Source of the DNA: Deroplatys truncata
Taxonomy: Eukaryota > Arthropoda > Insecta > Mantodea > Mantidae
Length of the DNA: 64,000 bases
Reading direction: 5' to 3'
Assembly: GCA_030765065.1 (NCBI GenBank)
Contig: CM060975.1
Coordinates: forward strand, 200,856,007-200,920,006
Under the pieces are notes generated by a model. It searched no databases and had not been told where the DNA came from. It saw only the letters and a list, made by a program, of their open reading frames with translations. Positions 1-48,427 of this stretch are shown piece by piece. The translations under genes were made by a program, and so were the position numbers. How positions within the stretch are numbered: the first letter of the stretch is position 1; every line of letters starts with the position of its first letter.

Positions 1-521
1 TGTATTTTAACGCGATCTACATTTTTTGTGTAGTAAAATTTTGTCTATCTCTTATGGTTTACCAGTTATGCAAAAGTCGTTCACAATGAAGAATACTTTT
101 GGAGACATTCCCAGTAAATTAGAGATATACATTTCATTTCTCATGACATTATCTTAAACATATGATATTTTCATCAAAATCGTTAGAGCCATTTTTGAGA
201 AAATTAAACTTTTCGAAAAATGTTCCATGTAAAGGGTAGTCTGGGGTGGGGGGATTTTCTTGAAAACCTTCATGTCGCATCTCTGGAAGATACTGAACCT
301 AAATACCAAGTTTGGTGTTTATCCGACTGTTCGTTTTTGAGTTATGCTGTTCACAGACACACACACACACACACAGACACACACACGGACATGTTTCCAA
401 AAATGCTTTTTTTGGATTCAGGAGGTCTCAAAACATGTATTTCCGGTGAAATCTCGGTATCGAATTTTTGGGTGGAATGCAATACTTCCCCTACTTACTA
501 TACGTAGTAGAGAAAGTAAAA
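1..521 (+). repeat. HLE-1 repeat, 3' part, nested in the next copy
   Basis: This is a copy of the HLE-1 family (full description at 20415-21372), cut by the window edge. It carries the CA microsatellite at about 356-388 and ends with the family's 3' hairpin and AGTAGAGAAAGT motif at about 506-517. The sequence straight after it (from 523) is the middle of a second HLE-1 copy, so this copy inserted into an A-rich stretch of that older copy. Confidence 0.85.
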
Positions 522-522
522 A

Positions 523-1011
523 TGAATAACGAATTTGAGAAAAAGTATAAGTATTGGAAAATTTAAGGAAATAACAAGCAATATCTCGAAAACGGTTCAC
601 TCAACAAAAGAAATGTATATGACATAAGTTGTGTATTTTAATGCGAGCTACATTTTTTGTGTAGTAACATTTTGTCTATCTCTTTTGGTTTACCAGTTAT
701 GCAAAAGTCGTTCACAATGAAGAATACTTTTGGAGACATTCCCAGAAAATTAGAGATATACATTTCATTTCTCATGACATTATCTTAAACATATGATATT
801 TTCATCAAAATCGTTAGAGCCATTTTTGAGAAAATTAAAATTTTCGAAAAATCTTCCATATAAAGGGTAGTCTGGGGTGGGGGGATTTTCTTGAAAACCT
901 TCGTGTCGCATCTCTGGAAGATACTGAACCTAAATACCAAGTTTGGTGCTTATCCGACTGTTCGTTTTTGAGTTATGCTGTTCACAGACACACACACACA
1001 CAGACCCCCCC

Positions 1012-1058
<47 letters not shown>

Positions 1059-1200
1059 ACACACGGACATGTTTCCAAAAATGCTTTTTTGGGATTCAGG
1101 AGGTCTCAAAACATGTATTTCCGGTGAAATCTGGGTATCGAATTTTTGGGTGGAATGCAATACTTCCCCTACTTACTATACGTAGTAGAGAAAGTAAAAA
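523..1200 (+). repeat. HLE-1 repeat, host of the preceding nested copy
   Basis: This is the 3' two-thirds of an HLE-1 copy, very similar to bases 1-521. The CA microsatellite is expanded (about 988-1054, interrupted by a C-run). It ends at the family 3' hairpin and AGTAGAGAAAGT. The remains of a gypsy element begin right after it. Confidence 0.85.
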
Positions 1201-2694
1201 TTAATAGCCAGTATGCTGGAAAATAACATCATTGAGCTTAGCAACTCCAATATATAAATAGCGTTTGTTGGACGGTAAATAAAGATAATAGTTTAAGAAT
1301 CACTATAGATGGGAGATATTTAAATAAGTTCATGCTACCAGACCACTTTCAAAATGAAAGTATAGAACAAACAATTTTAAAGTTATTACGTGGCAAATAT
1401 ATCTCTTCTATAGACCTAACAGCTTCATTTTGGCTAGTCGAGCTAGATCCCAAAGTACGTGATTATACAGCCTTTCAAATTTTTGGATTACAGTGTATAT
1501 ATTGTGTAAACCCGCACGGATTAAAAAAAATAGTGCTAGTGGATTCTTGAGAGTATTTTTGGTGATACAGCAGATGATTTCTTAATTAGATACATTGACG
1601 ACTTTTAATAATAAGCCAAACCTTTGAGGAAAATTTAGAGAATGTAAACTATGTACTAAATAAATTACATGAACATGGAATGACCCTAAATATAAAAAAC
1701 TCAAAATTCTGTGTGCCTGAAATCCAATTCCTGGGATATGTAATTAATGAAATAGGCATTCGATCAGATGAAGAAAGAATAGAAGCCATATTAAAAATCC
1801 CACCACCTAAAAATATTCGACAGCTACGACGCTTATTTGGAATTTGGAATTATGAAAGTAAATTTGTAACAAGATATGCTATAGAAGTAGAACCTTTAAG
1901 ACAGCTATTAAAGAAAACAAATAAATGGAAATGGACAGCAGAGCTACAAAAATGTTTCGAAGATGTAAGAAAGTTGTTCGCAAATGCAATACTGCTGGAA
2001 CGTCCAAGGGATGAATTAGATTACGAGTTGTATGTGGATGCATCTTGTCAAGGATATGCAGAAATACTAGGACAAAGAGAACATGACAACACATTTCATG
2101 TAATAAGCACTGCTTCACGTGGCCTAACCAATGTTGAAAGAAATGCCTCAGTAACAATGTTAGAAATAGGAGCACTCTATTTTTCATTACTTAAATTTAA
2201 GACATATATATTTCAGAAGAAAGTGAAAATATATACAAATCATATTAGCTTGACTTTCATTCAGAAATGTAGGTTATATAGCGGTAAGCTAGCTAGAATG
2301 ATTCTTGTTATTATGGAATTTTATGTAGAAATTATACATATTCCAGGCAAACAAAAGACATTCAGTGATTTAATATCAAGAATCAACCATGACAAAAAAA
2401 TTCCTGAAAGCTGTTCTAGACACAATATTAGATTAAAGTGCTTACAATATAAATTCCAATGGAGAGAGAATTGATATATCAATTTAAAAATATTAAAGTG
2501 GAGCAAGATAAAGATATTAAAATAGCAAGTTTGAAAGAAAAAGCTCCGAATATAGAAGAGGCAAAGAATAATACAATTGCTGTTAAAAATGGTATCTTAT
2601 ATAGGTCTTTCAACAAGAATGTCCTATCTTTTAACTTAAATAAAACACGTTCTATAAATGAGAGATGTTTATTTTTTTTTATTTTTGAACATAA

Positions 2695-3870
2695 TTAATG
2701 TCATTACGTGTGTTAAGTGACCGCCGCGACTTCGCTGGGTTGCGCGTATACGGTTGACCCAATTTTCAATGACAGTCCAACTTCACGAATAACACGCATG
2801 ATGTTATTCATAAGGTCATTTACTGTTTCTGGCTTGTTAACATAAACTTGAGATTTAACATAATCCCATAAGAAGTAATCCAACGGGTTAAACCACATGA
2901 CCTCGGGGGCCAGTTAACATCATCAACACGGGAAATGATGAAACCTCTGAACTTCTCCTTCAAAAGATCGATTGTTTCGAGAGCAGTATGACATGTGGCA
3001 ACATCTTGCAGGAACCAGATATTTCTGAGATCCATACCATCCAATTGAGGCCAAAAAAGTCCCTTATAAGAGCCCGGTATCTTTCTCCATTGACAGTTAG
3101 GGCTTCTCCATCTTCATCTTAGAAAAAATATGGACCAATGATTCTACCATACCACAATCCACACCACACAGCAACCTTTTGGGAATGAGTGGTCGTTTGT
3201 GAATCTGCATTGGATTGTGGTTGCTCCAATAGCGGCAATTTTGTTTGTTAACACAACCATCCATCCAAAAGTGGGCTTCGTCGCTGAAAATGATTTTTGG
3301 ACAAAAATCCGTGTGAGCTTCCAATTGCTCCATAGTCCAGTCAGCAAATACACGGCGCAACCTGTGGTCGTTGGGCTTTAGTTCTTGAGTTAACACCATT
3401 TTTTAAGCGTGAAACTTAAAGTCCAGATGAAAATTCGCCAAGTTGTGGTCGGTGAAAACTCCAATTCTAACGCTCGACGAGCAATTGATTTGTTTCCGTT
3501 CTCGCGTACACTCTCACGAACGGCGCCTATATTTTCGTTGGAGTGCTTACGTCGATTACGCACAGGCGTTCTTTGATAGCTAACAGAACCACTTCTTTCA
3601 AATTTATCGATCAAACGCCGAATCGCTCTCCCGCAGGGACGATTATGCACACCGTAAACTTCACGCAATACACGGAAGGTTTGGCGAACAGATGATCCAT
3701 TTTGATAATAAATTTTCATAATATCTACGCGTTGCTGAATGCTGTAACGTTTCATGGCTATTTGTCAATAACAACTGTAACCATATGAAAAAAATAGACT
3801 GCTGTAACTCAATAACAACGTCAGCTATCACATGTTAAAGATGGGACACACTTGTTGAAAGATCCCATAT
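2695..3870 (-). mobile_element. DD41D mariner-like transposon inserted in the gypsy element
   Basis: A minus-strand Tc1/mariner-superfamily transposon interrupts the gypsy integrase region: integrase zinc-binding sequence lies on both sides. The transposase remains fill 2713-3755. The end near 3850-3870 contains TGTGTCCCATCTTTAACATG (reverse strand), which looks like a terminal sequence. I could not find a matching repeat at the 2.7-kb end, so that end is probably decayed and both borders are approximate. Confidence 0.7.
2713..3755 (-). pseudogene. mariner-family transposase (DUF4817-type N-terminus, DD41D), frameshifted
   Basis: The N-terminal piece (3755 down to 3390) starts MKRYSIQQRVDIMKIYYQNG and reads as the helix-turn-helix domain seen in DUF4817-type insect transposases: GRAIRRLIDKFERSGSV, then NRRKHSNENIGAVRESV. 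The next piece (about 3399-3097) carries the first catalytic aspartate in IIFSDEAHFWMDG. The third (about 3044-2820) carries the second in WFLQDVATCHTA. The last (2898-2713) carries the third in NPLDYFLWDYVKS. By my count 41 residues separate the second and third aspartates. All three catalytic residues remain, but the frame shifts at least three times (near 3395, 3095 and 2900), so no full transposase can be made. The family cuts and pastes DNA at TA sites. Confidence 0.85.
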
Positions 3871-4595
3871 AAGAAGCATGGAAAGGAGATAAAGAGGTGG
3901 AAAACGTATATTCGAACAAGTATGGAATTAGAAGTGATAGAACAATTTCATCTAGGAATAACACATGCGGATACAGAGAAGATAACCCTAACTATTTTGG
4001 AGAATTTATGTATTTCTAAGCTAGGACATAAAGTAAGGAAATACATATCGTGTTGCGACCTTTGTCAAAAAGCAAAACACATTAATGTGGCTTACGAATA
4101 TACAACGAACTCAGTGCTTAGAGATAAACCAAGATGTTAGTTAAGTTTAGATTTGCACGGTCCGATGCCTATAAGTACTTTTGGGTACAAATTTCTATTT
4201 GTATGCTACGATGTATTCAGTAAATATGTACGAATATATGCACTCAAGAATGCAACCAGCGCAGGATGTTTAAACAGATTAACAAAATCATATTTCCCAC
4301 AAGAAGGAATCGTTCAGGTCAAACTTTGCGATAATCCATCGGTGTTTACCAGTTCTAAATTCATGAATGGAATCAAAGAGTTGGGAATCAAACAGTACTT
4401 CTCATCAAGATATCGACCTAATATCAATCCAGTAGAAAGAGAGATAAAAGAAATTTCAAAGTATCTACGTATAGTGTGTCACAACAGGAGAGCAGTTGGT
4501 ATTCCTACATAAATATTATTCAAAATCTACTTAATCAATCCGTAAATACAATAACAGGATTTAAACCAATAGAACTTCACCATGGAATTTTATAC

Positions 4596-4608
4596 AATAC
4601 TTCGAGCC
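4596..4608. repeat. 13-bp target-site duplication, left side of PLE pair
   Basis: AATACTTCGAGCC occurs here and again at 6231-6243, directly flanking the Penelope-like insertion in the gypsy element. The exact match shows that the whole head-to-head structure entered as one insertion. Confidence 0.85.
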
Positions 4609-4704
4609 ATGTAAGAACGTAGGTTTTCACGGCCGGTGTCACAATTATAACTAATATGATTTTCCGGGCTGTTATGCCGTGGTCTGCTGAAGAAAGATTT
4701 CCCA

Positions 4705-4739
4705 GACGTTTCGTCCACAACTGCGGTGGACATCTTCAG
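4705..4739 (-). ncRNA. hammerhead-ribozyme-like motif, PLE left arm
   Basis: On the minus strand the segment reads CTGAAGA (fits CUGANGA), a 6-bp stem GTCCAC/GTGGAC around a 7-base loop, then GAAA followed by CGTC. The palindromic ACGT gives the minimal stem III typical of PLE hammerheads, with GUC as the expected cleavage site. It is the same sequence as the right-arm copy at 6138-6172. Confidence 0.7.
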
Positions 4740-5333
4740 TGGCGCGGACGAAGTCTTCTCGGTGAAAGTATCGCAGCGTCTGATGCGTTGGCCGTTAGTG
4801 CCGCTCTCTTTATAGTGTGGGCGCTCTCTGCTGATTGGCCCGCTGGTATGAGGGGGCTGGCGCCGGCTGTGTTGTTGCTCTCTTCTGATTGGCTCGCAGC
4901 GTTTTTCGGTTTTGTATGACCTTTCTTGTTTTTGATGACTAGATGCCAGTTACTGTTGAGTTTCAATGCTTCTTCGTTCCTATTGAAATTATTGGGATGT
5001 TTATAAATCTCTATTGCTTCGCGTTGTAGCCGGGTATGGTAATGCTTTATGGAGGAAAGAATGTTGGTGTCCTGAAATCTAATGATGTGTTCGCCCTCGG
5101 CTTCAATGGCATGTTCGGCGACTGCCGATTTTTCTGTATGGCCCAGGCGGCAGTTCCTTTTGTGTTCGCTCAGTCTGGTGTTAGCGCTCCGCTGTGTGGT
5201 ACCAATGTACACTGAACCACACGAACAGGGAATACGGTAAACACCGGCCGATGACAGGGGGTCTCGGGGGTCTTTGGAAGAGCGCAGTAGGCTGTTTAAT
5301 TGTCTTGTAGGTTTGAATACTGTTTTGACGTTA
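4736..5333 (-). pseudogene. PLE C-terminal fragment with GIY-YIG endonuclease (left arm)
   Basis: This is the mirror-image copy of the right-arm frame. Reading down from 5333 it encodes the same linker and GIY-YIG domain. The open part from 5212 starts at the YIG half (MYIGTTQRSANTRLSEHKRN) and continues through AVAEHAIEAEGEHIIRFQDT to ASDAAILSPRRLRPRH. It differs from the right arm at only a few residues (T/N, A/T). It has no RT domain and is a truncated fragment. Unlike the right arm it lacks the small poly(A) insertion, so its last residues show the original reading. Confidence 0.8.
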
Positions 5334-5338
5334 CGTTA

Positions 5339-5911
5339 CTTCAACGTCATAACGTCAAAACAGTATTCAAACCTACAAGACAATTAAACAGCCTACTGCG
5401 CTCTTCCAAAGACCCCCGAGACCCCCTGTCATCGGCCGGTGTTTACCGTATTCCCTGTTCGTGTGGTTCAGTGTACATTGGTAACACACAGCGGAGCGCT
5501 AACACCAGACTGAGCGAACACAAAAGGAACTGCCGCCTGGGCCATACAGAAAAATCGGCAGTCGCCGAACATACCATTGAAGCCGAGGGCGAACACATCA
5601 TTAGATTTCAGGACACCAACATTCTTTCCTCCATAAAGCATTACCATACCCGGCTACAACGCGAAGCAATAGAGATTTATAAACATCCCAATAATTTCAA
5701 TAGGAACGAAGAAGCATTGAAACTCAACAGTAACTGGCATCTAGTCATCAAAAACAAGAAAGGTCATACAAAACCGAAAAACACTGCGAGCCAATCAGAA
5801 GAGAGCAACAACACAGCCGGCGCCAGCCCCCTCATACCAGCGGGCCAATCAGCAGAGAGCGCCCACACTATAAAGAGAGCGGCACTAACGGCCAACAGAG
5901 TTACCCACTAA
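5339..5911 (+). CDS. PLE C-terminal fragment with GIY-YIG endonuclease (right arm)
   Basis: An open frame (from 5300, but only sequence from about 5339 belongs to this arm) reads LLQRHNVKTVFKPTRQLNSL and then the GIY-YIG core GVYRIPCSCGSVYIG at about 5436-5482. After it come TRLSEHKRNCRLGHTEKSAVAEH and the family's conserved HYHTRLQREAIEIYKHPNNF. In PLEs this endonuclease nicks target DNA, probably to prime reverse transcription. The frame lacks an RT domain, so it is a 5'-truncated gene piece and not a functional polyprotein. Its end is altered by a small retroposon inserted at 5897. Confidence 0.85.
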   Translation, partial: LQRHNVKTVFKPTRQLNSLLRSSKDPRDPLSSAGVYRIPCSCGSVYIGNTQRSANTRLSEHKRNCRLGHTEKSAVAEHTIEAEGEHIIRFQDTNILSSIKHYHTRLQREAIEIYKHPNNFNRNEEALKLNSNWHLVIKNKKGHTKPKNTASQSEESNNTAGASPLIPAGQSAESAHTIKRAALTANRVTH

Positions 5912-6084
5912 CCCCAGGTTGCGCAAGCGGTACCTGGCACCACTAGCACCACTCCCTCTCCCATCCATTAGCTGTAGTTAGTGCATGGTAGGGGAGGCGA
6001 TGTAGATCCCTTTCGGATGATCGTCACCTGGTGTGGCGGAGGAGGGGCCACACCAATAAATTTAAAAAAAAAAAAAAAAAAAAA
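5897..6084 (+). mobile_element. small poly(A) retroposon inside the PLE right arm
   Basis: 188 bp are present in the right arm and absent from the left. The insert starts AGAGTTACCCACTAACCCC and ends in a run of about 21 A (6064-6084). GCCAAC flanks it on both sides (5891-5896 and 6085-6090), a 6-bp target duplication. It entered after the head-to-head PLE pair formed. It may be a SINE or the 3' tail of a LINE. I saw no clear tRNA promoter boxes. Confidence 0.8.
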
Positions 6085-6137
6085 GCCAACGCATCAGACG
6101 CTGCGATACTTTCACCGAGAAGACTTCGTCCGCGCCA

Positions 6138-6172
6138 CTGAAGATGTCCACCGCAGTTGTGGACGAAACGTC
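6138..6172 (+). ncRNA. hammerhead-ribozyme-like motif, PLE right arm
   Basis: The core CTGAAGA is at 6138-6144. Stem II is GTCCAC (6146-6151) with GTGGAC (6159-6164). GAAA is at 6165-6168, and the palindrome ACGT (6168-6171) is followed by C6172, the expected cut. Stem I can start as CCA/TGG and continue past an internal loop with GAAGA/TCTTC. PLEs are known to carry minimal type I hammerheads that work as dimers through the stem III palindrome. Activity here is inferred. Confidence 0.7.
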
Positions 6173-6230
6173 TGGGAAATCTTTCTTCAGCAGACCACGG
6201 CATAACAGCCCGGAAAATCATATTAGTTAT

Positions 6231-6243
6231 AATACTTCGAGCC
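6231..6243. repeat. 13-bp target-site duplication, right side of PLE pair
   Basis: AATACTTCGAGCC, identical to 4596-4608. The gypsy sequence resumes after it. Confidence 0.85.
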
Positions 6244-7337
6244 TTAATGTATCAGAAGTCATTGAAGATCAATCAGCTAAATTGCCAGAAAAAGAGGAAA
6301 TTTTTAAGTTAGCATTTTCTAAAATCTAAGTAAAGGTCCTGAAAAGAAAAGAAAAACATGAAGAAAGAAAAAGAAGTATTTGGAAAGTAAAGATAGGAGA
6401 TCAAGTGCTAGTGAAAAGCAAAAGGTTGTCAAATAAACTTCGTAAGGAATATTGGAGATTGTTTCTTAGTTATCATGGTCCTTACGAAATACTAAATATA
6501 TTTGGCACAGATGCATACGAACTAAGGAACAATAAAACGAATAAAGTAATTGGAAGATTCCACAAATGTTGAAGCCATACAAATGAAAGCAGTCTGTGGC
6601 ACAAGAAGAAACAGAAAAAGGTGATAAATAGAAATAAAGGAATAAACTATCCAAAACATAAAAAGGGATATCGCTGTAACTCCAAAAATTCTAATAATTT
6701 ATAGCCTTACAAAGCATAAAGAAATGAGCATTTAATAACTACAAAATAATATACACAAAATCACTTAAATAATGCAAAGTACTATTTCTAATATATCTTT
6801 ACTAAATCTAACCGATTGGTCGATAAAACAAAAGGGATTATAGATAAATATGGTGTAATAGAAGAAAATCCACTGTTATTGAGAAAAATAGCAGAAACCT
6901 GAATAGCAACTACATTTATAATGTATAATATGTAAATTATTAGAAATATAAATATGTTTAAGAAATAAGTTGTAAATAAAGGCTAATAAGTGTTAGTATG
7001 CCTAACTAAGTATTAAATATGCAGCAAATAGGATACTTAATAGTGGCTGCGTTAGTAAATAAACAAACTTTACGCAGGTCATTGAACACCAGATCACTGA
7101 CCTTAAAATGTTGAAAGTGAGAGTGGCAAACATATGGCAGACCATGTATAAACTACCCTGCTACGCGAGTGTTGTGAAAACCAGTGCGTGTAACCTAAAT
7201 AGTGCCGGTCTGAAATATAAAGTGCTATAGTAAAAAGGTTGTGTTTCTTTCTTTCAGGAGACTTTCAGAAAATATTTTAAAAATTAAAGGACAAAAACCA
7301 AACGAACAATTTTTAAATATTTCTAAAAGGGGGAAAT

Positions 7338-9976: not shown

Positions 9977-11365
9977 CACTGCCAGTTGTGAAAATTGCAA
10001 CATCAAGAAAGAATTTACCGAATAACTCCAAACTTGGTGGAAGTGTAGCAGAATGTACGCAATAAGTGATTAGGTTTACAGAGAGATGGGGTACACATAG
10101 GCCGAGCAGAGGCCCCTCGTGTCGGTCCGACAAGGTTAGTGTTGCGCCCCAGTGTAGTCAGTGCAGAGCTGTCAAACAAGGTAAAAGCAATAAAGTTAGT
10201 GCCAGTATGCCTCGTCGACGTCAAAGGGAGTCATATCGGCATGTGAGTGAGATCGAACTGGTCAGAATGATCTGCCTCCGGGAAGCGGATTTGTCATACC
10301 GTGACATTTCGGCTCGTAGAGGGCATGCTGTTACGACAGTGATGCGTGTGTGTAAGCAGTGGATAGATGAAGGTCGTACGCAGCGAAGAGCGGGTACTGG
10401 ACCACGGAACATGACCACAGCACGGAATGACCGTCATCTTGTCCGTATGGACATAACGGACCGTACAGCTTCATCCACAGCGTTGGGTCGACGCTGGAGC
10501 ACTGCAACAGGTGTGAACTTGTCTGCATCAATGGTTCGTCGCCGTCTGCTGCAGATTGGACTGGTTGCATGCATGCCATTACGTTGGCTTCCATTGTCCA
10601 GAAACCACAAGCTCCTCCGACTTCAATGGGCACGTGAACACCGTCACGGGTACTGAGTGGAAAAATGCAGTCTTTTCGGACGAGTCCCGCTTCAACGTGT
10701 CCTACAGTGATGGCCGCATACGTGTCTGGCGGTACCTTTGTGAGCGCAACCTGGAGAGCTGCATTGTTGAGCGGCATAGCGGACAAACAACAGGTGTGGT
10801 GGTTTGGGGCTCCATTGGTTACAACAACCGATGTCACCTCCTATGAATTGAGGGCACTTTGAACAGCAAGTTGTAGAGCCCGAGGTACTCCCCTGCTTCA
10901 GGCATCTCCACAGGCCACATTTCAACAGGACAATGCCCGGCCACATATTGCGAGGAATGTACAAGCCTTCTTAGAAGAGCGACGGGTACCATTGCTTCCC
11001 TGGCCTGCACGTTCGCCTGACATGTCGCCCATCGAACATGTCTGGGATATGGTTGGCCGGCACCTGGTGCGTCACGGTCCTCCAGTAACCAGTGTCACGG
11101 ATTTGTGGGCTCGAATACAAACTGTGTGGAGGGAAATCCCTCAGGAACTTACTCAGAACCTTTTTGATTCAATGCCACGGCGTATAACAGTTCTAATTGC
11201 AGCGCATGGATGTCACACCAAGTATTGAATATTAGGGCCCAAAGGTCATGTATAGATTTGAAAAGCTTACGATATCATTTGTTACTTGTGTACCTAACCT
11301 GTGGTATTAATTCATTGAATTCATGCGTTTACTTCTTGGTATTGCAATTTTCACAAACACCAGTG
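9977..11365 (+). mobile_element. Tc1-like DD34E transposon with terminal inverted repeats
   Basis: A 1.39-kb element flanked by TA (9975-9976 and 11366-11367). The ends are inverted repeats: CACTGCCAGTTGTGAAAATT on the left and the complement of AATTTTCACAAACACCAGTG on the right. The repeat extends about 35 bp with a few mismatches. It interrupts an HLE-1 copy cleanly. Inside is a nearly complete Tc1 transposase with a few breaks. A fragment of the same family lies at 61378-61582. Confidence 0.9.
10207..11228 (+). pseudogene. Tc1-family transposase (DD34E), frameshifted
   Basis: The start at 10207 (MPRRRQRESYRHVSEIELVR) opens the paired-like DNA-binding region. It continues through YRDISARRGHAVTTVMRVCKQW and the second helix-turn-helix (GVNLSASMVRRRLLQIGL). 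The first catalytic aspartate is in AVFSDESRFNVSYSDGR. The second is in QDNARPHIARNVQ. The glutamate is in SPDMSPIEHVWDM, 34 residues after the second aspartate by my count. The C-terminus ends CHTKY at 11228. The frame breaks near 10650 (after AREHRHG) and again between about 10850 and 10930, so the copy is inactive. All three catalytic residues are preserved, which suggests recent decay. The enzyme type excises the element and inserts it at TA. Confidence 0.9.
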
Positions 11366-17966: not shown

Positions 17967-18535
17967 ATAGCAATGAGATGTAAAGTAAATGCTGGATAGT
18001 TAAAGATGAAATGCAGAGCAATGTATTGGATGAGAAAACAGAAATAAATTCAGAACAAAACAATAAAAAAAAATAAATTCAGAACAAAAAAAAATTGGGT
18101 AAAAATAATTAAAACAAATACTTATGTAGCAAACAGAAAATGTAAAACAGTGTCTAGATTTAATAGATGTAAATATATTTATGTAAAGGGTGAATATTTT
18201 GGTAAATATGTGTAATAATTACAAAATTCTTAAATGCACAAATTTTTGTTAACAACTTAAGAAAGTAAGCAATTTTGTAACAGTAATTAAATAATTCATG
18301 GTACAGTATTGGCTATAAAAAAATTGTAATGTTAGATTAATGTCTAAACACATTAAACAAGTAGTGGCGAGATAAAAAAAAACATATGTCGTGTGTTAAA
18401 TGCGTGTGAAGTGTTAAGTGAAAGTGATAGCGTGTGTTTCAAGATTTAGGAGACTAAAAACCCAATTATAAAATTTCCAAACAAGTTGTAAATATTCATA
18501 ATTATGTTTCTAGTGGGGCATATGATGCAGTAATT

Positions 18536-20120: not shown

Positions 20121-20410
20121 AGTCGTCCTCCGTGGACTAGTGGTTACCGTGCTAGCCTCTAGTTCCCGAGGTCGCGGGTTCAACCCCGGGGGAGAGCAAT
20201 GAATTTTTTTTGGGCGTAAGAATCCTTAGCACGGCTTCCTTCGGAAGGGGAGTAAAGCCGGTGGTCCCGTGTCGTAGATTTACGGCACTTAAAGAACCTC
20301 AAACCGGATAAGAGACCTCTGAGCAAAATGTCCGGTCTTTCACGCTCAATACAGAATGGGACGCTCAGGACCATAGTAGTTAAAGAACGTCCATAAATAC
20401 ATAACAACAA
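20121..20410 (+). repeat. SINE-B, tRNA-derived
   Basis: The head is tRNA-like: GTCCTCCGTGGACTAGTGGTTACC (A box) and GTCGCGGGTTCAACCCCGGG (B box). It continues with the family body TTTGGGCGTAAGAATCCTTAG, GTCGTAGATTTACGGCAC, AAAATGTCCGGTCTTTCACG and AAAGAACGTCCATAAATA. It lies directly upstream of a full-length HLE-1 copy. Confidence 0.85.
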
Positions 20411-20414
20411 AAAA

Positions 20415-21372
20415 TCTGATGTGTTACACTGGCATGACTTTCTCTACTCTTGTACAAACTATTTTTACAAACTCTTATTCGCCATCTATTTAATATTAAT
20501 CGAGATAAACGTTTGCAGAAACGATCTTTTGACATACAAAGAGAATTACATTTTACACATAGCGACCAGCTCTAAAAATATTTGACTATCGCTTAAGGCC
20601 TACTATGTTTCCCTTGTTTTGTATTTGCAAGGACAATATAGAAATACAGTAAGCTTTAAGCATAGACATATCTCTTAATAGCTGGTTGCTAGGTGCAGCA
20701 CCTTTCCTACAGATTAATACTCTTTGCATATCCAAGACAAAAAAAGAATAACGAATTCCCATTTGAGAAAATTATTGAAAAATTTAAGGGAATAACAAGC
20801 AATATCTCGAAAATGGTTCACACAACAACAAAAAGTTAATGATATAAATTATGTATTTTAACGCGATCTACATTTTTCGTGCAGTAAAATTTTGTCTATC
20901 TCTTATGGTGTACCAGTTATGCAAAAGTCGTTCACAATGAAGAATACTTTTGGAGACATTCCCAGAAAATTCAAGATATACATTTTATTTGTCATGAAAA
21001 TATCTTAAACATATGATATTTTAATCAACACCTTTAGAGCCGTTTTTGAGAAAATTAAAATTTTCGAAAAATGTTCCATGTAAAGGGTAATTTGGGGTGG
21101 GGGATTTTCTTGAAAACCTTCGTGTCGCATCTCTGAAAGATACTGAACCTAAATACCAAGTTTGATGTTTATCTGACTGTTCGTTTCTGAGTTATGCTGT
21201 TCACAGACAGACAGACAGACACGCTCACAGACACACACGGACATGTTTCCAAAGTTGCTTCTTTGGATTCAGGGGACCTCAAAACATATATTTCCGGTGA
21301 AATCTTGGTATCGAATTTTTGGATGGAATACAATACATCCCCTACTTACTATACGTAGTAGAGAAAGTAAAA
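20415..21372 (+). mobile_element. HLE-1, full-length Helentron/DINE-like non-autonomous element
   Basis: Reference copy for the family. It starts TCTGATGTGTTACACT after a run of A. A 12-bp motif ACTTTCTCTACT (20437-20448) recurs inverted and perfect as AGTAGAGAAAGT at 21357-21368. Just before the end, CTACTTACTATACGTAGTAG (21342-21361) folds into a 7-bp hairpin with one bulge. A microsatellite of CAGA/CA units (about 21204-21240) sits about 130 bp from the 3' end, where other copies have long CA tracts. No protein is encoded. This matches the known plan of DINE/HINE elements: subterminal inverted repeats, a variable microsatellite and a 3' stem-loop. The 3' end lacks the CTRR of canonical Helitrons, so Helentron-type relatives fit better. 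The assignment is inferred. Confidence 0.75.
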
Positions 21373-24184: not shown

Positions 24185-24980
24185 TCGGATATGTTGCACT
24201 CACATGACTTTCTCTACTCTTGTACAAACTATTTTTACAAACGTCTACTTCATATTAATCCAGATGAACATTTTGCAAGAGGAATATGGTAGGCTTTAAG
24301 CGATAGTCAAATCTTTTAAGAGCTGGTTGCTATGTGGAGCAGTCCATTCTCTTTGCATGTCTAGGACATAAAAAACGAATAACGAATTTCTATTTGAGAA
24401 AAAGTATAAGTATTGGAAAATTTAAACAAATAACAATGAATATCTCGGAAATGGTTCACTCAAAAAAAAATCTGTGGCATTAATTGTGTGTTTTAACGAG
24501 ATCTACATTTTTATGTAGTAAAATTTTGTATATCTGTTACGGTTTACCAGTTATGTAAAAGTCATTCAGAATGAAAGGAGCTTTTGGGGAAATTCCCAGA
24601 AAATTCAAGATATACATTACATTGGCTTTGAAAATATCTTAAACGTATATTTTAATCAAAACCCTTAGAGCCATTTTTGAGAAAATAAAAATTTTCCAAA
24701 TATGTTTCATGTAAGGGGTAGTTTAGGGTGTGGGATCTTCTACAAAATCTTCGCGTCGCATCTTTGGAAAATACTAAACTCAAACCCAGGTTTGGTATTT
24801 ACCCGGCTTTTCGTTTTTGAGCTATGCTGTTCACAGACACACACAGATATGTTTCCAAAAATGCTTTATTTGGATTCAAGGCACCTCAAAAAATCTATTT
24901 CTGGTGAAATCTCGGTAACGAGATTTTGCGTAGAATGCAATACTTCCCCTGTTTACTATACGTAGTAGAGAAAGTAAAAA
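24185..24980 (+). repeat. HLE-1 repeat, near full length
   Basis: Subterminal ACTTTCTCTACT at 24207-24218 and its inverted partner AGTAGAGAAAGT at 24964-24975. The CA tract is short (24834-24846). A small internal deletion in the 5' half shortens it relative to the copy at 20415. The following stretch 24981-25598 shows no gene. Confidence 0.85.
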
Positions 24981-27271: not shown

Positions 27272-28153
27272 TCTTTTTACTTTCTCTACTAGTTATAGTA
27301 AGTAGGGGAAGTATTGTATTCCCCCAAAAATTCGATACAGAGATTTCACCGGAAATACATGTTTTGAGACCCCCTGAATCCAAAAAAAGCATTTTTGGAA
27401 ACATGTCCGTGTGTGTGTCTTTGAACAGCATAACTCAGAAACGAACAGTCGGATAAACACCAAACTTGGTATTTAGGTTCAGTATCTTCCAGAGATGCGA
27501 CACGAAGGTTTTCAAGAAAATCCACCCACCCCAGAGTACCCTTTACATGGATCATTTTTCGAAAATTTTAATTTTCTCAAAAATGGCTCTAACGATTTTG
27601 ATTAAAATATCATATGTTTAAGATATTTTCATGATAAACAAAATGTATGTCTTGAACTTCCTGGGAATGTCTCCAAAAGTATTCTTTATTGTGAACGACT
27701 TTTGTATAACTAGTAAACCATAATTTTACTACACAAAAAATGTAGATCGCGTTAAAATACACAATTTATGTCATATACATTTTTTTGTTGAGTGAACCAT
27801 TTTCGAGATATTACTTGTTATTCCCTTAAATTTTTCAATACTTATTTTCTCAAATGGGAATTGGTTATTCATTTTTTTTGTCTTGGATATGCAAAGAGTA
27901 TTAATCTGTGGGAAAGGGAATGGTGCTGCACCTAGCAACCAGCTATTAAGAGATATGATTGTGCTTAGAGGCTACTGTATTTCTATATTGCCCTTGTAAA
28001 TATATATTCCCCTTACATCTACAAGGAAATTAGCAATAAGATAGACTCTGCAAAAGTTTATCTCGATTAACATGAAGTAGATAGAGAATAAGCGTTTGTA
28101 AAAATAGTTCGTACAAGAGTAGAGAAAGTCATGTGAGTGTAACACATCAGATT
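27272..28153 (-). repeat. HLE-1 repeat, reverse, near full length
   Basis: It starts with ACTTTCTCTACTAGTTATAG and ends GAGAAAGTCATGTGAGTGTAACACATCAGA, the reverse complement of the family 5' end. The microsatellite is reduced to GTGTGTGTCT (27411-27421). 28154-28609 shows no gene. Confidence 0.85.
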
Positions 28154-28609: not shown

Positions 28610-29830
28610 CTTTTTACTTTCTCTACTACTTATCTATAGTAAGTATAGAGAGTACCTACAGCATTCCGCCCAACAGTTCGATGGCGAGATATCACGGAAA
28701 TACACGTTTTCAGGTTCCCTGAAACAAAAGAGCATTAAAAATCTGATGTGTTACACTCACATGACTTTCTCTATTCTTGTACAAACTATTTTTACAACCG
28801 CTTATTCTCCATATGCTTCATGTTAATCGAGATATCGAGATGTCAATCTTATTGCTAATTTTGTTGTAGGTGCAAGGGGAATATGGTAGGTTTTAAGCGA
28901 TAGTCAAATATTTTAAGAGCTGGTTGCTATGTGGAGTTTCTTTGCATTACAGGACAAAAAAAAGTTAATAACGAATTTCCATTTGAGAAAAAGTATAAGT
29001 ATTGGAAAATTTAAGGGAATAACAAGCAATATCTCGAAAATGGTTCTCAATAACAAAAATGTATATGACATAAATTGTGTACTTTAACGCGATCTACATT
29101 TTTTGTGTAGTAAAATTTTGTCTGTCTCTTATGGTTTGCCAGTTATGCAAAAGTCGTTCACAATGAAAAATGCTTTTGGAGACATTCCCAGAAAATTCGA
29201 GATATACATTTCATTTCTCATGACAATATCTTAAACATAGGATATTTTAATCAAAATCGTTAGAGCCATTTTTGAGAAAATTAAAATTTTCGAAAAATGT
29301 TCCATGTAAAGGATAATCTGGGCTGGGGGGATTTTCTTGAAAACCTTCGTGTTGTATCTCTGGAAGATACTGAACCTAAATACCAAGTTTGGTGTTTATC
29401 CGACTGTTCGTTTCTGAGTTATGCTGTTCACATTCACACACACGGACATGTTTCCAAAAATGCTTTTTTTTGGATTCAGTGGTTCTCAAAACATATATTT
29501 CCGGTGAAATCTCGGTATCGAATTTTTGGGTGGAATACAATACTTCCCCTACTATACGTAGTAGAGAAAGTAAAAAACTATCCGCATGTGTTTCTGCCGG
29601 TGAGCAGCAGAACTCGAAACACAAAAGTCGCTTAATTAGCATTTAAGTTCAGTCTTTCAAGGATACAACATGATTTTCATGAAAGTCTCCCACCCCAAAT
29701 TGCCCTTTTTATATCTAAAGGTTTTCATTACTTTTATTTTCTCAAAAATGGCTCTAACGATTTTGTTTCAAAAGCCATATATTTAATATATTTGCATGAA
29801 AAATAAAATTTATATTTCCACTATCTGGAA
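28610..29830 (-). repeat. HLE-1 repeat, reverse, split by a nested plus-strand copy
   Basis: The first piece (28610-28737) is the 3' end (CTTTCTCTACTACTTATCTAT, then ATTCCGCCCAACAGTTCGAT). The rest resumes at 29576 (CTATCCGCATGTGTTTCTGC) and runs to about 29830. A plus-strand HLE-1 copy sits at the break. Confidence 0.7.
28738..29575 (+). repeat. HLE-1 repeat nested inside a reverse copy
   Basis: It starts AATCTGATGTGTTACACTCA and ends GTAGTAGAGAAAGTAAAAA. Both junctions lie in A-runs of the older copy, so no target duplication can be separated from the tails. Confidence 0.85.
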
Positions 29831-30868: not shown

Positions 30869-31733
30869 ATTCTTTTTACTTTCTCTACTACGTATAGTAA
30901 GTCGGGGAAGTATTGTATTCCACCCAAAAATTCGATACCGAGATTTCACCGGAAATACATGTTTTGAGACTCCCTGAATCCAAAAATAGCATTTCTGGAA
31001 ACGTGTGTGTGTGTGTGTGTGTGTGTGTCTGTGTGTGAACAGCATAACTCAGAAACGAACAGTCGGATAAACACCAAACTTGGTATTTAGGTTCAGTATC
31101 CTCCAGAGATGCGACACGAAGGTTTTCAAGAAAATCCCCCCAACCCAGACTACCCTTTACATGGAACATTTTTCGAAAATTTTAATTTTCTCACAAATGG
31201 CTCTAACGATTTTGATTAAAATATCATATGTTTAAGATATTGTCATGAGAAATGAAATGTATATCTCGAATTTTCTGGGAATGTTTCGAAAAGTATTTTT
31301 CATTGTGAACGACTTTTGCATAACTGGTAAACCATAAGAGCTAGACAAAATTTTACTACACAAAAAATGTAGATCGCGTTAAAATACACAATTTATATTA
31401 TATACATTTCTTTTGTTGAGTGAACTGTTTTCGAGATATTGCTTGTTATTCACTTAAATTTTCCAATACTTGTACTTTTTCTCAAATTCGTTATTCATTT
31501 TTTATGTCCTAGACATGCAAAGAGAATGGAATGCGCCACATAGCAACCAGCGTTAAAATATTTGACTATCGCTTAAAACCTACCATATTCCCCTTGCATC
31601 TACAAGAAAATTATCAATAAGATTGACATCTCGATATCTCAATTAACATGAAGCATATGGAGAATAAGCGTTTGTAAAAATAGTTTGTACAAGAGTAGAG
31701 AAAGTCATGTGAGTGTAACACATCAGATTTTTT
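30869..31733 (-). repeat. HLE-1 repeat, reverse, full length
   Basis: Both subterminal motifs are present (CTTTCTCTACTACG at the 3' end; GTAGAGAAAGTCATG at about 31695). The GT tract is at 31004-31028. A good reference for the reverse orientation. Confidence 0.85.
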
Positions 31734-35429: not shown

Positions 35430-36148
35430 TAAGGGGATGCGTTGCACTCACATACTTTCTCTACTCTTTTACGATTATTTTTTACAAACGCTTATTCTCC
35501 ATCTACTTCATGTTAATCGAGATGAACATTTGCAGAAACTATCTTATTGCTTATTTTCTTGTAGGTGCAAGGGGAATACGAGGCTTTAAGCGATTGTCAA
35601 ATCTTTTAAGAGCTAGTTGCTATGTGGCATTTTATTCTGTTTGTATTACCAGGACATAAAAAAATAAATAAATAAAAAAGCTAATAACATATTGCCAATT
35701 GAGAAAAAGGAGTAAGTATTGGAAAATTCAAACAAATAACAAGGAATATCTCGGAAATGGTTCACTCCACACACACAAAAATGTATACGACATAAATTGT
35801 GTTTAAAGGAGACCTACATTTTTTGTGTAGTAAACATTTGTCTATCTCTTACGTTTATCAGTTATGAGAAAGCATTCTGAGTGAAGAGTGCTTTTGGGGA
35901 CTTTCCCAGAAAATTCAAGATATATATTTCATTTACCATGAAAATATCTTAAACGTAAGATATTTTAATCAAAATCGTTAGCCATGTTTGAGAAAAGTAA
36001 TTTTTTCTAAAAATGTTCCATGTAAAGGGTAGTGTCTGGGGTAGGGGAATTTTTTTGAAAATTTTCGTGTCGCATCCTTGGAAGGTAGGAAATTAAAGTA
36101 CCAAGTTTGGTATTTATCCGACTTTTCGTTTTTGAGCTGTGCTGTTCA

Positions 36149-36182
<34 letters not shown>

Positions 36183-36290
36183 CATGTTTCCAAAAATTCT
36201 TTATTTCTATTCAGCGCACCTCAAAACATGTATTTCCGGTGAAATCTCGATATCAAATTTTTGGTTGGAATGCAATACTTCCCATAATGA
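35430..36290 (+). repeat. HLE-1 repeat, 3'-clipped
   Basis: Starts GGATGCGTTGCACTCACATA and ACTTTCTCTACT. The CA tract is at 36149-36178. It ends at AATGCAATACTTCCC without the terminal hairpin. 36291-36596 shows no gene. Confidence 0.8.
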
Positions 36291-41119: not shown

Positions 41120-42770
41120 GAAAGTGAACCCTTTCATTATTCAGAAGGGCATTGACGCTATTGCAGGTGCGGTTCAGTCCTGCACTCGTCTTCGAATTGG
41201 TTCATTGTTGTTTCAAAACAAATCCGAACAGCAGAGTAAGTTCTTGTTGCGCGCCATGCTTCTCCACGGTTATCCTAACCGTGTTGAGAAGCACCGCACC
41301 TTGAATTCCTGTCGAGGCGTCGTTACCACCCATAGCCTCTGTGGTATGCGGACGAAGAACTTGTCGACTATCTTTCTGATCAAAAGGTGACAGCTGTTCA
41401 TCGAGTGCAGGCTAAACGTGACGGAATTTTGGTACCAACTCGTACCCTATTTATCACTTTCGATGGCGTCGATCTGCCCACAAGTCTTTCAGCAGGGTAC
41501 GAGCGTATTACGGTGAGGCCCTATATTCCTAGACCTCTGCGTTGTTTCAAATGCCAACGTTTTGGGCATACGCAAGTCTCATGTAAGAGTGCCGTTACCA
41601 TCTGTGCAATATGTAGCCAGCCCTCACACGAAGGTACCTGTTCAACAGCCCCCGTATGCGTTAATTGCAAAGGGTCTCATTCTGCTTCATTTGCCGACTG
41701 TCCGCGGTACTTGGACGAGGCGATCCAGGAGATCCGGGTAAAGGAGAACCTCTCCTTCGCTTAAGCCCGGAGGCGTTACCATGCGCGCCAAACTTCGCTC
41801 CTGCGATCTGGTATATTTAATTCTGCTGTTGCCTCCCCAGTACTCCGAAGTGATCCGAAACTCAGACCTGGACCACGACTGCATTAACCGCCACTACCAT
41901 CCGGCCATCCATATCTGATATAGTTACCAAGCCTTCTAAAGCCGGTCCTAAGGTCATGACGACCCAAGGCACTGATAAGAAATCCAAGCAGAAACTCCGT
42001 ACGGAAGATTTTCTCAAAGACCCTCCGCGTGCGCGCGGTAAGAAAAGTTCACCTTGGAAAGAATTGTTCTTTCACACAAGCCGTGTGTTGGACAGGGTTG
42101 GAAAGGTAGAATCAGACGACTGAAACATTCAATGCCATAGCCGGGATTTGAACCACGGATCTCCCGGTCTCCGTCTGGTTGCTCTAACCACTGAGCTACC
42201 ATGGCAACATGTCGGCACGCCATTAAATTCTCCAGCTGATTCGAAGTTTTCCCGGTAAACCACAAGGAGATCTCAAATGTATTGAGATGTCATACCCCAA
42301 TGGCAACTTACATTCTTTGTAAGTACTTAAGTCCCGGGCTTTTAGTTTCAACCACTATTAGGTCAAATAATGGAAATAATTGTTCTTTCACACAACGCGT
42401 GTGTTGGATAGGGTTGGAAAGGTAGAATCAGACGACTGAAAAATGCAATGCCATAGCCGGGATTTGAACCACGGATCTCCCGGTTTCCGTCTGGTTGCTC
42501 TAACCACTGAGCTACCATGACAACATACCGGCACCTTCTTCTCCTCGAAGGTTGCAGTCCCAGGATGCTCCTGGGACAAGCCGCGCTCAGCAGCCCCCAT
42601 CACTCATTACCACCCGGAACCGATTCACGGCGCTTGAATCGGTTTCTTGCACTGAGCGCGAGGGCCCTCCCTTCGAGGAGCCTATGGAGTCTGACCCACT
42701 CCTTAGCAAAAGCCCGAGCCCAAAGGTTAAGCAAAAGGTTATTTTAAGCCACCCAGACAGTTTATCCCTT
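41120..42770 (+). pseudogene. LINE ORF1 (gag-like, three CCHC zinc knuckles), interrupted
   Basis: It opens VNPFIIQKGIDAIAGAVQSC and LRIGSLLFQNKSEQQSKFLL, the RNA-recognition-like N-terminal domain of such ORF1 proteins. A frameshift lies near 41365-41385. The next frame gives TLFITFDGVDLPTSL and three zinc knuckles: CFKCQRFGHTQVSC, CAICSQPSHEGTC and CVNCKGSHSASFADC (about 41548-41703). A stop follows at 41764. Two SINE-A copies interrupt the 3' part. The final piece (from about 42540) holds TTRNRFTALESVSCTEREGP. ORF1 proteins bind the element RNA. Three kinds of damage make it non-functional. Confidence 0.8.
42056..42531 (-). repeat. two SINE-A copies, head to tail, inserted in LINE ORF1
   Basis: Reverse strand. 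The first (42056-42370) is complete. From its 3' end come AATTGTTCTTTCACAC, the tRNA-like region (CATAGCCGGGATTTGAACCACGG for the B box, CTCTAACCACTGAGCTACCATGG for the A box) and the body to TTTCAACCACTATTAGGTCA. The second (42371-42531) has only the 3' end and the tRNA-like part, stopping at CCGGCAC. CACCTT occurs on both sides (42050-42055 and 42532-42537) and may be a target duplication. Confidence 0.8.
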
Positions 42771-42776
42771 TTATTC

Positions 42777-45632
42777 ATGGCTATCCTGACCTGGAATTTA
42801 CGTGATGTACAATCGCATAGGGCGGAACTGCAACTTGTATTGCGTCCCCATTCACCTATGGCCGTGTGTTTGCAGGAGACTAAGCTTCGCCATCACGATC
42901 CTTTTGATCTCCGAGGGTATACTCCGGTTCGCTACGACCTTGAGCCGGATGAGGGTACTCCTGCTCATGGAGGTGTCATGCTGTTAGTGCGTAACGACGT
43001 TCATTTTCAAACTCTCGCTCTTACGTCCGACTTGCAAGCTGTTGCCGTTCGGCTTTAATTACCCGGATTTTTCTTTTCTGTTTGCTCTGTGTATACACCT
43101 CCATCTTCTCCCCTCGCTCACGTGGACATTCGCGATCTCCTGTCCGCTCTCCCAACACCATTCGTTTTGTTGGGAGATTTTAATGCCCATCACCCCCTGT
43201 GGGATTCGCCAAGAACCTGAGCGAGGGGAACTCTTCTTTCCGAATTTTTTTATCAGTTCAACCTCTCCATCCTCAATATAGGTGAACCTACATTTATTTC
43301 TGATTCTTTTGGTACATTCTTTCACTTGGACCTTGCTGTTTGCTCACTCCAGCTTGCTAGTCGTCTGCAGTGGAACGTCGTCGCTGACACCTACTCCAGC
43401 GACCATTACCCCTGCATCGTTTCTCTTTTGTCTCACCACGTCCAGCATTCCGGAGTACCTATCTTAATATTCAGAAAAGCCGACTGGAGATTGTATTCCA
43501 GCCTCATGTGTTTTCAGGACGAGCCCTTCTCTGACGTTAACCAAATGGTGCAGCACCTTTCGTCTACGATTCTGTCTGCCGCCGAACGCACGATTCCCCG
43601 TTCATCCTCTCACCCTCGGCGTCTTCCTGTTCCTTGGTGGAACGAGGCTTGTCGGGACGCTGTTCGTTCTCGTAGAACTGCACTTAGGGTGTTTCGGAGA
43701 CACCCTACACTTGATAATTTGGTCACTTATAAACAATCGCGCGCCAGGGCTCGTCGCATTACTCAGGATAGCAAGAAGGCGTCCTGGACTCGTTTTGTCG
43801 AGTCTTTTAATCGCTTCACGCCTTCCTCTGTTGTTTGGGATAAAATTCGTCGCTTATCCGGTAAGTTTTGCATTGTACTGTGTCTGGCCTTCAGGTTTCC
43901 AATGCCACCATAGCGGATCCGGCTGCCATTGCTAACACTCTGGGTGCTGCCTTTGAGGCGGTTTCCAGTTCTGCCCATTATTCCGCCGGCTTTCGCTCTC
44001 TCAAAGACCGGCAGGATTCCGAGACCTATAATTTTCGGTCTGCTAATACAGTGTGTTATAATGAACTTTTCACACTGAGGGTGCTGGAGCACGCTCTCCA
44101 TTGCTCTAGGCACTCCGCTCCTGTGCCGGACGGCATTCATGTCCTGTTGTTAAAGAAACTTTCAGCCGACAGTAAACTCTTTCTCTTACAGGTCTATAAC
44201 CGTATTTGGCAAGACGACCTTTTTCCTTCCGTTTGGCGCGAAGCCACCATTGTCCCTATCCTTAAGCCTGGGAAGGATCGTCAACTACCTTCCAGCTACC
44301 GCCCTATCTCCCTCACCAGTTGCATTTGCAAGGTGATGGAGCGCATGATCAACGTAGGTTGACATAGTGGCGTGAGCCTCAGAAACTTCTAGCGAACGCT
44401 CAGTGCGAATTTCGCCGCCATCGCTCTACCGTCGACCATCTGGTCTCTCTGTCGACGCATATGATGAACGGATTTCTGAGAACGTGTCAAACAGTGGCTG
44501 TGTTTTTTGATCTGGAGAAAACTTATGACACTTGTTGGAGGCGCGGCATTTTACGTACACTGTACGCATGGAATTTACGCGGTCTTCCCATATTTCTCCG
44601 GGAGTTTATGACGGACCGCGTCTTTCGTGTACGTGTGGGCTCGGTTTTGTCTAGTCGTTTTATTCAAGAGAACGGTGTACCGCAGGGCTCTGTACTTAAT
44701 TTCACACTTTTTGCGATAGCTATCAACCCATTGTTGATTGCATTCCACCTGGCATTTCATCGTCCCTTTTCATTGACAATTTTGCTATTTATTGTAGTTC
44801 CCGGCGGACCTGTCTGCTCGACTGCCGTCTCCAGAGGTGTATCGACCGTCTCTACGCCTGGAGTAACGCCAACGGCTTTAATGTCTCCGCCGAGAAGACC
44901 GTTTGTATTAATTTCTAGCGCCGGAAGGCTTTCCTTCCGCCCTCTCTCCATCTTGGGCCGGGGATACTTCCGTTTGCAGATGAGGCAAAATGTTTGGGGT
45001 TGATCTTTGATAGAAAGCTGAGCTGGACTTCACACATTTCCTTTTTAAAAGCAAAGTGTGACGTTCTCTTAATCTTTTACTGTTTTAAGTGGCACATCCT
45101 GGGGAGCTGATCGGACCATCCTTCTGTGTCTTTATCGCTGTTTGATCCTATCCAAGCTTGATTACGGGTGCAATGTCTATTCGTCGGCACGTCCATCTGT
45201 GATTAAATGTCATTCACCATCGTGGCATAAGAGACGCTACAGGGGCCTTTCCAACAAGCCCTGTACCTAGTCTATATGCTGAAGCTGCAGAGCCTCCGCT
45301 GTCCCGGCGTGAGATGCTTTTGTGCAGCTATGCCTGTCGACTCTCAAGCTTGCCTGACCACCCATTCTTCGAGTTATTTTTCTAGGATTCGCTTGATCGG
45401 CAATATTTAATTAGCTCCTCTGCTTTGCTCCCTCCAGGGGTACGATTTCGACAGTTTCTTCGGCGTTTGGACGTTACGCCAGCGCCGGCCCTTCCCAGGA
45501 GTAAACGCGTTTTCCTCCATGGTTGAGCTGAGGCTCACTGTTACCTTGGGTTATCGTCGATGCCGAAGACTGAGACCCCTTCTTCAGTCTTTAGATCAGC
45601 GTTTTTAGAACTACAGGGGCAATTCGGGGAAT

Positions 45633-47618: not shown

Positions 47619-48427
47619 AAATATCTGATGTTGCACTCACATGACTTTCTCTACTCTTGCGCAATCTATTTTTACAAACGCTTATTCTCCATTACTTCAT
47701 GTTAAACATTTGCAGAAGCTATCTTATTGCTAATTTTGTTGTAGGTGCAGGGGGGAAATGGTAGGCTTGAAGCGATAGTCAAATCTTTTTGAGAGCTGTT
47801 GCTATGTGGAGCATTCCATTCTCTTTGCATGTCCAGGACATAAAAAAAACAATTACGAATTCCTATTTGAGAAAAAGTATACGTATTGGAAAATTCAAAC
47901 AAATAACAAGGAATATTTCGGAAATGGGTCACCCTACATGAAAAATGTATATGACATAAATTGTGTGTTTTAACGAGTTCCACACGTTTGGTGCCGGAAA
48001 AGTTTGTCTATCTCTTACGGTTTACCAGTTATGCAAAAATCATTCAGAAAGATGACTTTGGAGGCATTCCCAGAAAATTCAAGATATACATTTTGTCATG
48101 AAAATTCTTAGAGCTATTTTTTATAAAATCAAAATTTTCGAAAAATGTTCCATGTAAAGGGTAGTCTTGGGCGGGTGAATTTTCTCGAAAATCTTCGTAT
48201 CGCATTCTTTGAAAGATACTGAACCTACATACCAAGTTTGGTATTTATCCGAATTTTCGTTTTTGAGTTATGGTATTCACAGACACACACATGGACCTGT
48301 TTCTAAAAATGCTTTTTTTTGAATTCAGGGGATCTCAAAATGTGTATTTCCAGTGAAATTTCGGTATCGAATTTTTAAGTGGAATGCATTACATCCCCTA
48401 CTTACTATACGTAGTAGAGAAAATAAT
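47619..48427 (+). repeat. HLE-1 repeat, full length
   Basis: Starts AATATCTGATGTTGCACTC and ends CTATACGTAGTAGAGAAAATAA. The CA tract is short (48279-48288). 48428-48775 shows no gene. Confidence 0.85.

Follow-up and report, generated by a model that had tools for sequence, protein, structure and literature searches.

A highly repeated, self-nesting HINE family and its autonomous Helentron parents in the genome of Deroplatys truncata

The window analysed here is a 64-kb stretch of DNA (C1:200856007-200920006) in a genome of 4.29 Gb and 818 contigs. The odorant-receptor family 7tm_6, regarded as a mark of winged insects, has 37 matches in this genome and is matched in 0 of 14 control genomes. 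It contains a full-length, 958-bp HINE copy on the minus strand (20415..21372), the ends of which align with those of other genomic copies. The strand is fixed by the ORF direction of the parent Helentron (see below): the true 5′ end is at 21372 and the 3′ end at 20415. From 5′ to 3′, all on the minus strand, the copy carries (i) a perfect 5′ subTIR, ACTTTCTCTACT, at 21357..21368, set 4 nt (TTTT) in from the 5′ terminus; (ii) a partial inverted copy of this subTIR at 21335..21346 (consensus AGTAGGGGAAGT; AGTAGGGGATGT in the window copy); (iii) a variable GT/CTGT microsatellite at 21203..21241, ∼130 bp from the 5′ end; (iv) the 3′ subTIR, AGTAGAGAAAGT, a perfect 12-mer at 20437..20448; and (v) a terminal stem-loop with the terminus at 20415..20436 (consensus CATGTGAGTGTAACACATCAGA), one stem arm of which is altered in this copy. 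A T-run (an A-run on the plus strand) of target or terminal Ts adjoins the 3′ end at 20409..20414. The preliminary description had read the element in the reverse orientation; because the parent ORF reads on the opposite strand, what was called the 5′ end there is the 3′ end, and the supposed 3′ hairpin consists of the 5′ subTIR and the inverted copy beside it.

The minus-strand consensus starts with TTTT-ACTTTCTCTACT-ACGTATAGTA-AGTAGGGGAAGT, followed by the GT/CTGT tract ∼130 bp in, and its AT-rich body leads to the 3′ end, AGTAGAGAAAGT-C-ATGTG-AGTGTAA-CACAT-CAGA, and then Ts. Both subTIRs are 12 bp long and the 5′ one lies behind TTTT, which agrees with the 11–15 bp and the distance of 2–4 nt from the 5′ end used to define such repeats; both are perfect in 15 of 27 copies. 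The 5′ subTIR and its partial inverted copy form a hairpin: DNA folding of this end in the consensus gives z = −2.6, a stability reached by 2 of 200 shuffles. The hairpin reported earlier as overlapping a 3′ motif is therefore real, with the true 5′ end as its actual location. The DINE-1-like subgroup is defined by an inverted repeat next to the 5′ subTIR together with a GTCY microsatellite in the 5′ part, both of which are present here. The 3′ end lies 22 nt from the 3′ subTIR, and its 5-bp stem (ATGTG/CACAT) is exact in 16 of 27 copies and has no extra stability over shuffles (z = −0.7). The family is non-coding, with no long ORF. Its consensus holds an imperfect internal inverted repeat (122–299 in the orientation of the preliminary description), and no central tandem repeats were seen in it.

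A genome search with 20415-21372 returned many matches that span the whole query at 87–91% identity among the best 40 of 10,974 candidates. The 963-bp consensus was built from 27 of 28 full-length loci (L001 is the window copy; L019 lacks one end), which are those most similar to the window copy and not a random sample. The termini of all 27 loci with both ends coincide to within a few bases, and the consensus has the same ends as the window copy. Divergence from the consensus is 2.8–5.6% (median 3.9%) over the 27 copies, and the window copy matches the consensus at 93.6%. The 5′ motif is perfect in 20 copies and the 3′ motif likewise in 20. A microsatellite of variable length, mainly GT/CTGT on the minus strand, was found in 21 copies; in 20 of these it starts ∼124–133 bp from the 5′ end, and in the remaining one (L024) 97 bp from it. 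The flank rule gave no tract in 6 of 27. The microsatellite noted in the preliminary description is thus confirmed, with the true 5′ end as the one it lies near.

In the window, consensus matches form 48 stretches that total 14,680 bp (22.9%) and include 16 5′ ends and 14 3′ ends. The 12-mer ACTTTCTCTACT occurs 26 times at no more than one mismatch (18 exact, eight with one mismatch), against a shuffle expectation of 0.51 and a largest shuffle count of 3. Both 12-mers are perfect in only four copies (starting at 20415, 24185, 27275 and 30874), and two more (28742 and 47624) have one mismatch at one end. More than twenty copies, as counted earlier, is hence a fair figure if fragments are included, but not for copies with a perfect motif at both ends. 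Besides the copy at 20415..21372, those with two perfect 12-mers are at 24185..24979 (minus strand), 27275..28151 (plus strand) and 30874..31727 (plus strand). Two further full-length minus-strand copies are at 28742..29575, with one mismatch in the 3′ 12-mer, and at 47624..48426, with one mismatch in the 5′ 12-mer; another minus-strand copy (35436..36286) is missing the outermost 28 bp at its 5′ end. The copy at 28742..29575 sits inside an older one of opposite strand, the halves of which are at 28612-28736 and 29587-29815. At the left edge (1..1199, minus strand), two successive copies interrupted at the 3′ side (consensus 1–515, running past the window edge, and 1–631) belong, as opening halves, to a nested array that extends left of the window and continues in L071. 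A subfamily in which the inner segment 762–847 of the consensus, in the region of its internal inverted repeat, is inverted is represented at 24185-24979, 28742-29575, 30874-31727 and 47624-48426. No Helentron coding remains were found in the window (tblastn, E 0.01).

Remains of other transposons are also present. Pfam matches at 1599-2474, 3390-3764, 10066-11228 and 43221-45003 include a retroelement RNase H, a DUF4817 helix-turn-helix, a Tc1-type transposase, a LINE endonuclease (weak, below the Pfam cut-off) and a reverse transcriptase. Nearly the same protein is encoded head to head at 4736-5335 (minus strand) and 5300-5911 (plus strand), as an inverted duplicate; the plus-strand copy has no Pfam match, and we take the protein to resemble the GIY-YIG stretch of a Penelope-type element. 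Two Rfam tRNA matches on the minus strand (42133-42205 and 42449-42521), 316 bp apart, lie in a LINE-like region. ARAGORN finds no tRNA at either position, and they are possibly a tRNA-derived repeat.

The target sites of the repeat were analysed by joining the two flanks of each copy and matching them to the other loci retrieved from the genome. A match that spans the junction was found for 11 of 27 copies, eight of which are clean (L003, L005, L007, L008, L010, L015, L018 and L026) and three too gapped to judge (L016, L017 and L020), while 16 have no match among these loci. In L008, for instance, the match is 94.8% over 269 bp, and in L026, where it is to the family consensus, 94.2% over 292 bp. 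None of the eight clean empty sites has a target duplication (L018 has a small repeat inside its neighbour's end), and none of the four nested insertions examined has one either. The absence of target duplication noted earlier is thereby borne out where it can be judged, i.e. in 8 of 27 copies. In 21 of 27 copies a run of at least three Ts adjoins the 3′ end, and the number of Ts at insertion sites differs by a few between empty and filled sites; a variable T number at target sites has been described for HINEs (PMC4067079). Insertion into TT or T-rich sites without modification of the target, as expected of a HINE, is seen in the clean empty sites, the nests and the T-runs alike.

Across the genome there are 173,596 exact occurrences of the 20-base 5′ end and 151,900 of a 20-base 3′ end (controls 0 for both), the latter count including a satellite. 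This satellite, near the start of contig C1, consists of 3,409-bp tandem units with one HINE copy each; two units read (L092, C1:20300-27400) are 99% alike, and the 3′-end motif recurs from C1:20528 to 122786. An exact 23-bp end pattern has 0 matches in viral contigs and 0 in bacterial assemblies, and on this basis we rejected a horizontal spread into either.

We also searched the genome with Pfam for the Helitron Rep domain, which gave 152 matches (150 of 291 candidates scored). At least 18 of them lie in open frames of at least 2,000 aa, i.e. 17 of the 65 tallied and one at C1:33206011. The element on C10 (L059 and L060), the one parent read across its whole ORF, has a stop-to-stop frame of 2,543 aa. 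Pfam assigns to it a herpes-tegument-like protease (PF04843, E 5.3e-9), DUF6570, Rep (PF14214, E 1.5e-27) and a PIF1 helicase (PF05970, E 1e-28). At its C-terminus is an endonuclease-like domain (PF14529, E 8.9e-6) that spans profile positions 2–117 of 117 with 26.0 bits, against a cut-off of 27.4. The motifs sought were found in each domain (VEFQMRGSPHEH, YIIKY, Walker A, GDFN and SDH), and the tegument-like domain has the Q-C and D-x-H residues. Between the protease-like and Rep regions (residues ∼300–830) lie tandem KESERKRNKEYMEQAREDEEY-like repeats of ∼21 aa. Parent ORF lengths vary among copies. The Rep motif reads GSPHEH in 10 of 10 loci (L049-L058), and the GSPH form of Rep motif 2, with S and not L, is the Helentron type (PMC4067079). 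The triplet beside it is YQR, only the first and last letters of which fit F/Y-(w/l/y/k)-R. Against solved structures, the Rep half has no PDB match at E 0.01, and the endonuclease part has no good match, the single one being at E 0.35; an AlphaFold2 model of the latter from one sequence has a pLDDT of 39 and is uninformative. NCBIfam matches to the parent protein are helicase relatives only, all far below their cut-offs.

These long elements share both ends with the repeat. In the C10 parent, a 3′ end that is 31/33 identical to the last 33 bp of the repeat lies ∼900 bp past the ORF stop in the same direction, and the same 31/33 identity holds in all six long elements examined, each of which had been chosen by its Rep match. 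Consensus 1–849 forms the 5′ end of all five parents in which that end was seen: four at 91.7–93.9%, and the C8 parent in two pieces (93.1% and 95.7%) around a nested HINE. The C10 parent's own 5′ end lies outside the stretch read. Four parents are 9,855–10,250 bp long and the C8 parent is 10,989 bp, including a 957-bp insert. The check proposed in the preliminary description, a search for a Rep/helicase element with these ends, is thus positive: elements of ∼10 kb have the 3′ end in six of six and the 5′ end in five of five, and they encode Rep, together with a PIF1 helicase in the copy read for it. No match to consensus 850–930 was found in the 3′ stretches that belong to the parents themselves. 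The body of the HINE corresponds to the first ∼850 bp of the parents plus a short 3′ end, and it would borrow the parent proteins by offering them their own ends. Between two of the autonomous copies, identity is 99.1% over 1,397 bp, which suggests, short of proof, recent movement.

Taken together, these observations indicate, with a probability that we put at about 95%, that the repeat is a HINE (DINE-1-like), i.e. a non-coding element moved by a Helentron of the same genome, an endonuclease-bearing rolling-circle transposon. The Helentron/DINE-like class proposed in the preliminary description is upheld by the ends, the microsatellite, the lack of target duplication where it could be judged, the T-run sites and the long Rep-coding partners with both ends in the same polarity. 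From the domains encoded by the parent, the following course of events may be proposed: the Rep domain would nick at the T-run/5′ subTIR end, the helicase would peel off one strand, and the 3′ subTIR and stem would act as terminator; the endonuclease-like domain would nick a poly-T target, where the single strand would be joined without duplication.

Two other classes could be considered. Inverted 12-bp motifs near both ends and a very high copy number would suit a MITE moved by a DDE transposase, with the 12-bp motifs as its inverted repeats, and DINE-1 itself was formerly called a MITE (PMC2374699). However, duplications are lacking at all eight clean empty sites and in all four nests, and the inverted repeats are set back from the termini of an element with asymmetric ends. 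Furthermore, the long elements that share these ends, which were picked by Rep match, encode Rep (plus a helicase in the one read), and we regard this origin as highly improbable. Equally improbable is a derivative of a canonical Helitron (5′ TC … CTRR 3′, inserted between A and T). In the orientation of the preliminary description most copies do begin with TC after an A, and a Helitron-type Rep (GLPHAH) is present in the genome, at 10 of 20 loci (L029-L048); near the Rep piece of one of these 20, L038, the 5′ end of the repeat occurs twice. But no CTRR occurs at the other end, the ends being TTTTACTTTC...CATCAGA, and insertion goes into T-runs. Both ends are common to the GSPHEH/endonuclease type, the ORF of which runs opposite to the canonical-Helitron reading, and the 3′-end motif was not found in the ∼3.5-kb stretches scanned at L029-L048. 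These 20 loci hold a second, mostly broken set of Rep genes and are probably old canonical Helitrons that exist alongside the Helentrons. Helitron2, which has Rep and helicase without an endonuclease, is not matched either, given the endonuclease-like domain in the parent.

The Helentron-driven HINE also inserts into itself. T-runs lie at the 3′ end of copies as well as at consensus 627–633, so that older copies are frequent landing sites for newer ones, and such landings would build nests and head-to-tail rows. In the genome, 6,749 exact head-to-tail junctions were counted, and at 18,247 exact junctions a new 5′ end is joined to the T-run at consensus 627–633 of another copy. In the four single H631 junctions examined, a whole copy is followed by the second half of the outer copy, the first half of which is reduced to 19 bp in one case (L093). 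The array in L071 (C1:200853007-200856106), which joins window 1-1199, has a Russian-doll order of two opening halves, two whole copies and two matching closing halves. The autonomous elements behave likewise: all five with a known 5′ end come after consensus ..630 of another copy, and a stretch that matches consensus 627 onwards follows those on C3, C5, C8 and C13 but is absent after the one on C4. About 10.5% of landings (18,247 over 173,596) are at consensus 627–633 against ∼4% expected (∼174,000 such sites over ∼4.16 million T-runs of at least seven, scaled from the window with all runs taken as equal). The estimate is rough: the two patterns are of unequal length, nests that have been amplified raise it, and 6–9 Ts stand at this place in only 19 of 27 copies.

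Rows could alternatively arise mainly by rolling-circle read-through after missed termination instead of self-insertion. Read-through is the published explanation for Helitron arrays (PMC4067079), and rows with inner copies cut at the 3′ end are described for Helitrons too (PMC7492417). In six arrays on C1, chosen for closely spaced junctions and hence not at random, near-identical units (99.5–100%) were found in three: 99.7–99.9% in L074, 99.7–100% for some units of L075 (others 93–97%; one pair of overlapping pieces, 100% by construction, was ignored) and 99.5% for one pair in L077. By contrast, units in L072, L073, L076 and part of L077 differ within an array (94.8–97.0% alike) as much as between arrays (mean 96.3%). 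Neighbours across head-to-tail junctions, all sampled on C1, are 92.8% alike (9 pairs) against 92.0% for cross pairs (72), an excess that is not significant (permutation p 0.13; 9 of 14 junctions usable, the other five lacking a long stretch on one side), which favours separate landings. In all four H631 junctions, moreover, the insert lies between the two parts of the outer copy. The array and neighbour comparisons thus give no support to read-through as the main source of arrays, which we consider unlikely; the 99.5–100% identical units of some arrays indicate that duplication or read-through happens too. Both routes to rows thus occur, and separate landing in T-runs seems common in this small sample from one chromosome.

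A wider and more tentative picture, which we hold at somewhat below even odds, is that of a Helentron system that may be moving now or have moved very recently, with many long-open autonomous copies. Its poly-T target, present on its own strand, would make the family its own landing pad, with about one-tenth of 5′ ends in one internal T-run, and arrays would form mostly by self-insertion and less by read-through.

The preliminary description did not recognise the family. The terminal 13-mer TTTCTCTACTACG has no occurrence in the literature searched, and novelty holds only as far as that literature. Nor does the family appear in the titles and abstract openings of the Helentron papers listed for Orthoptera or spiders. 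Its name, sequence and scale may therefore be new. DINE-1/HINE and Helentron are kinds already known, and what is notable here is the scale, the self-nesting and the long open autonomous copies. The open parents, the six partners that bear the 3′ end and the 173,596 5′ ends provide material for tests of the endonuclease role, the target rule and array formation, and biochemical work is still needed on how Helentrons move (PMC4067079). The neighbour test argues that many tandem arrays are made by self-insertion.

The closest known systems are DINE-1 (INE-1) of Drosophila, the mite HINEs and the VTD-carrying Helentrons. Like the present family, DINE-1 has (i) subTIRs of 12–13 bp with a partial inverted repeat beside the 5′ one; (ii) a variable CCGT/CTGT-type microsatellite in the 5′ part and a stem-loop, weak in the present family, after the 3′ subTIR; and (iii) a TT or T-rich target, no duplication and no long ORF (PMC2374699; PMC4067079). 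The 'IR' of DINE-1 is in the same place as the inverted copy of the window element (PMC2374699). The two differ in that the subTIR sequence found here matches none of the 14 in Table 1 of PMC2374699, the present consensus has no central tandem repeats and its 3′ stem is shorter. In scale, the 173,596 exact 5′-end 20-mers compare with 334–6,297 DINE-1 copies per fly species, though the counting methods differ (PMC2374699). HINE-Mo of the mite Metaseiulus is likewise a non-coding short version of a Rep/helicase/endonuclease element, Helentron-Mo, with ends in common, T-run targets and a variable T number (PMC4067079). The 3′ subTIR of mite HINEs is 38–60 bp from the 3′ end, compared with 22 nt here, a figure given for the mite families only (PMC4067079), while that of DINE-1 is described merely as 'clearly internal' (PMC2374699). 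Unlike in Helentron-Mo (PMC4067079), a tegument-like protease domain heads the ORF of the present parent. Such a domain in Helentrons has been published, insects included, and the VTD-carrying Helentrons are alike in having a PF04843 herpes-tegument-like deubiquitinase domain in a Rep/helicase/AP-endonuclease ORF; the transposon-borne VTDs tested are from zebrafish, and their likeness to the parent of the window family is by description only (PMC9741609).
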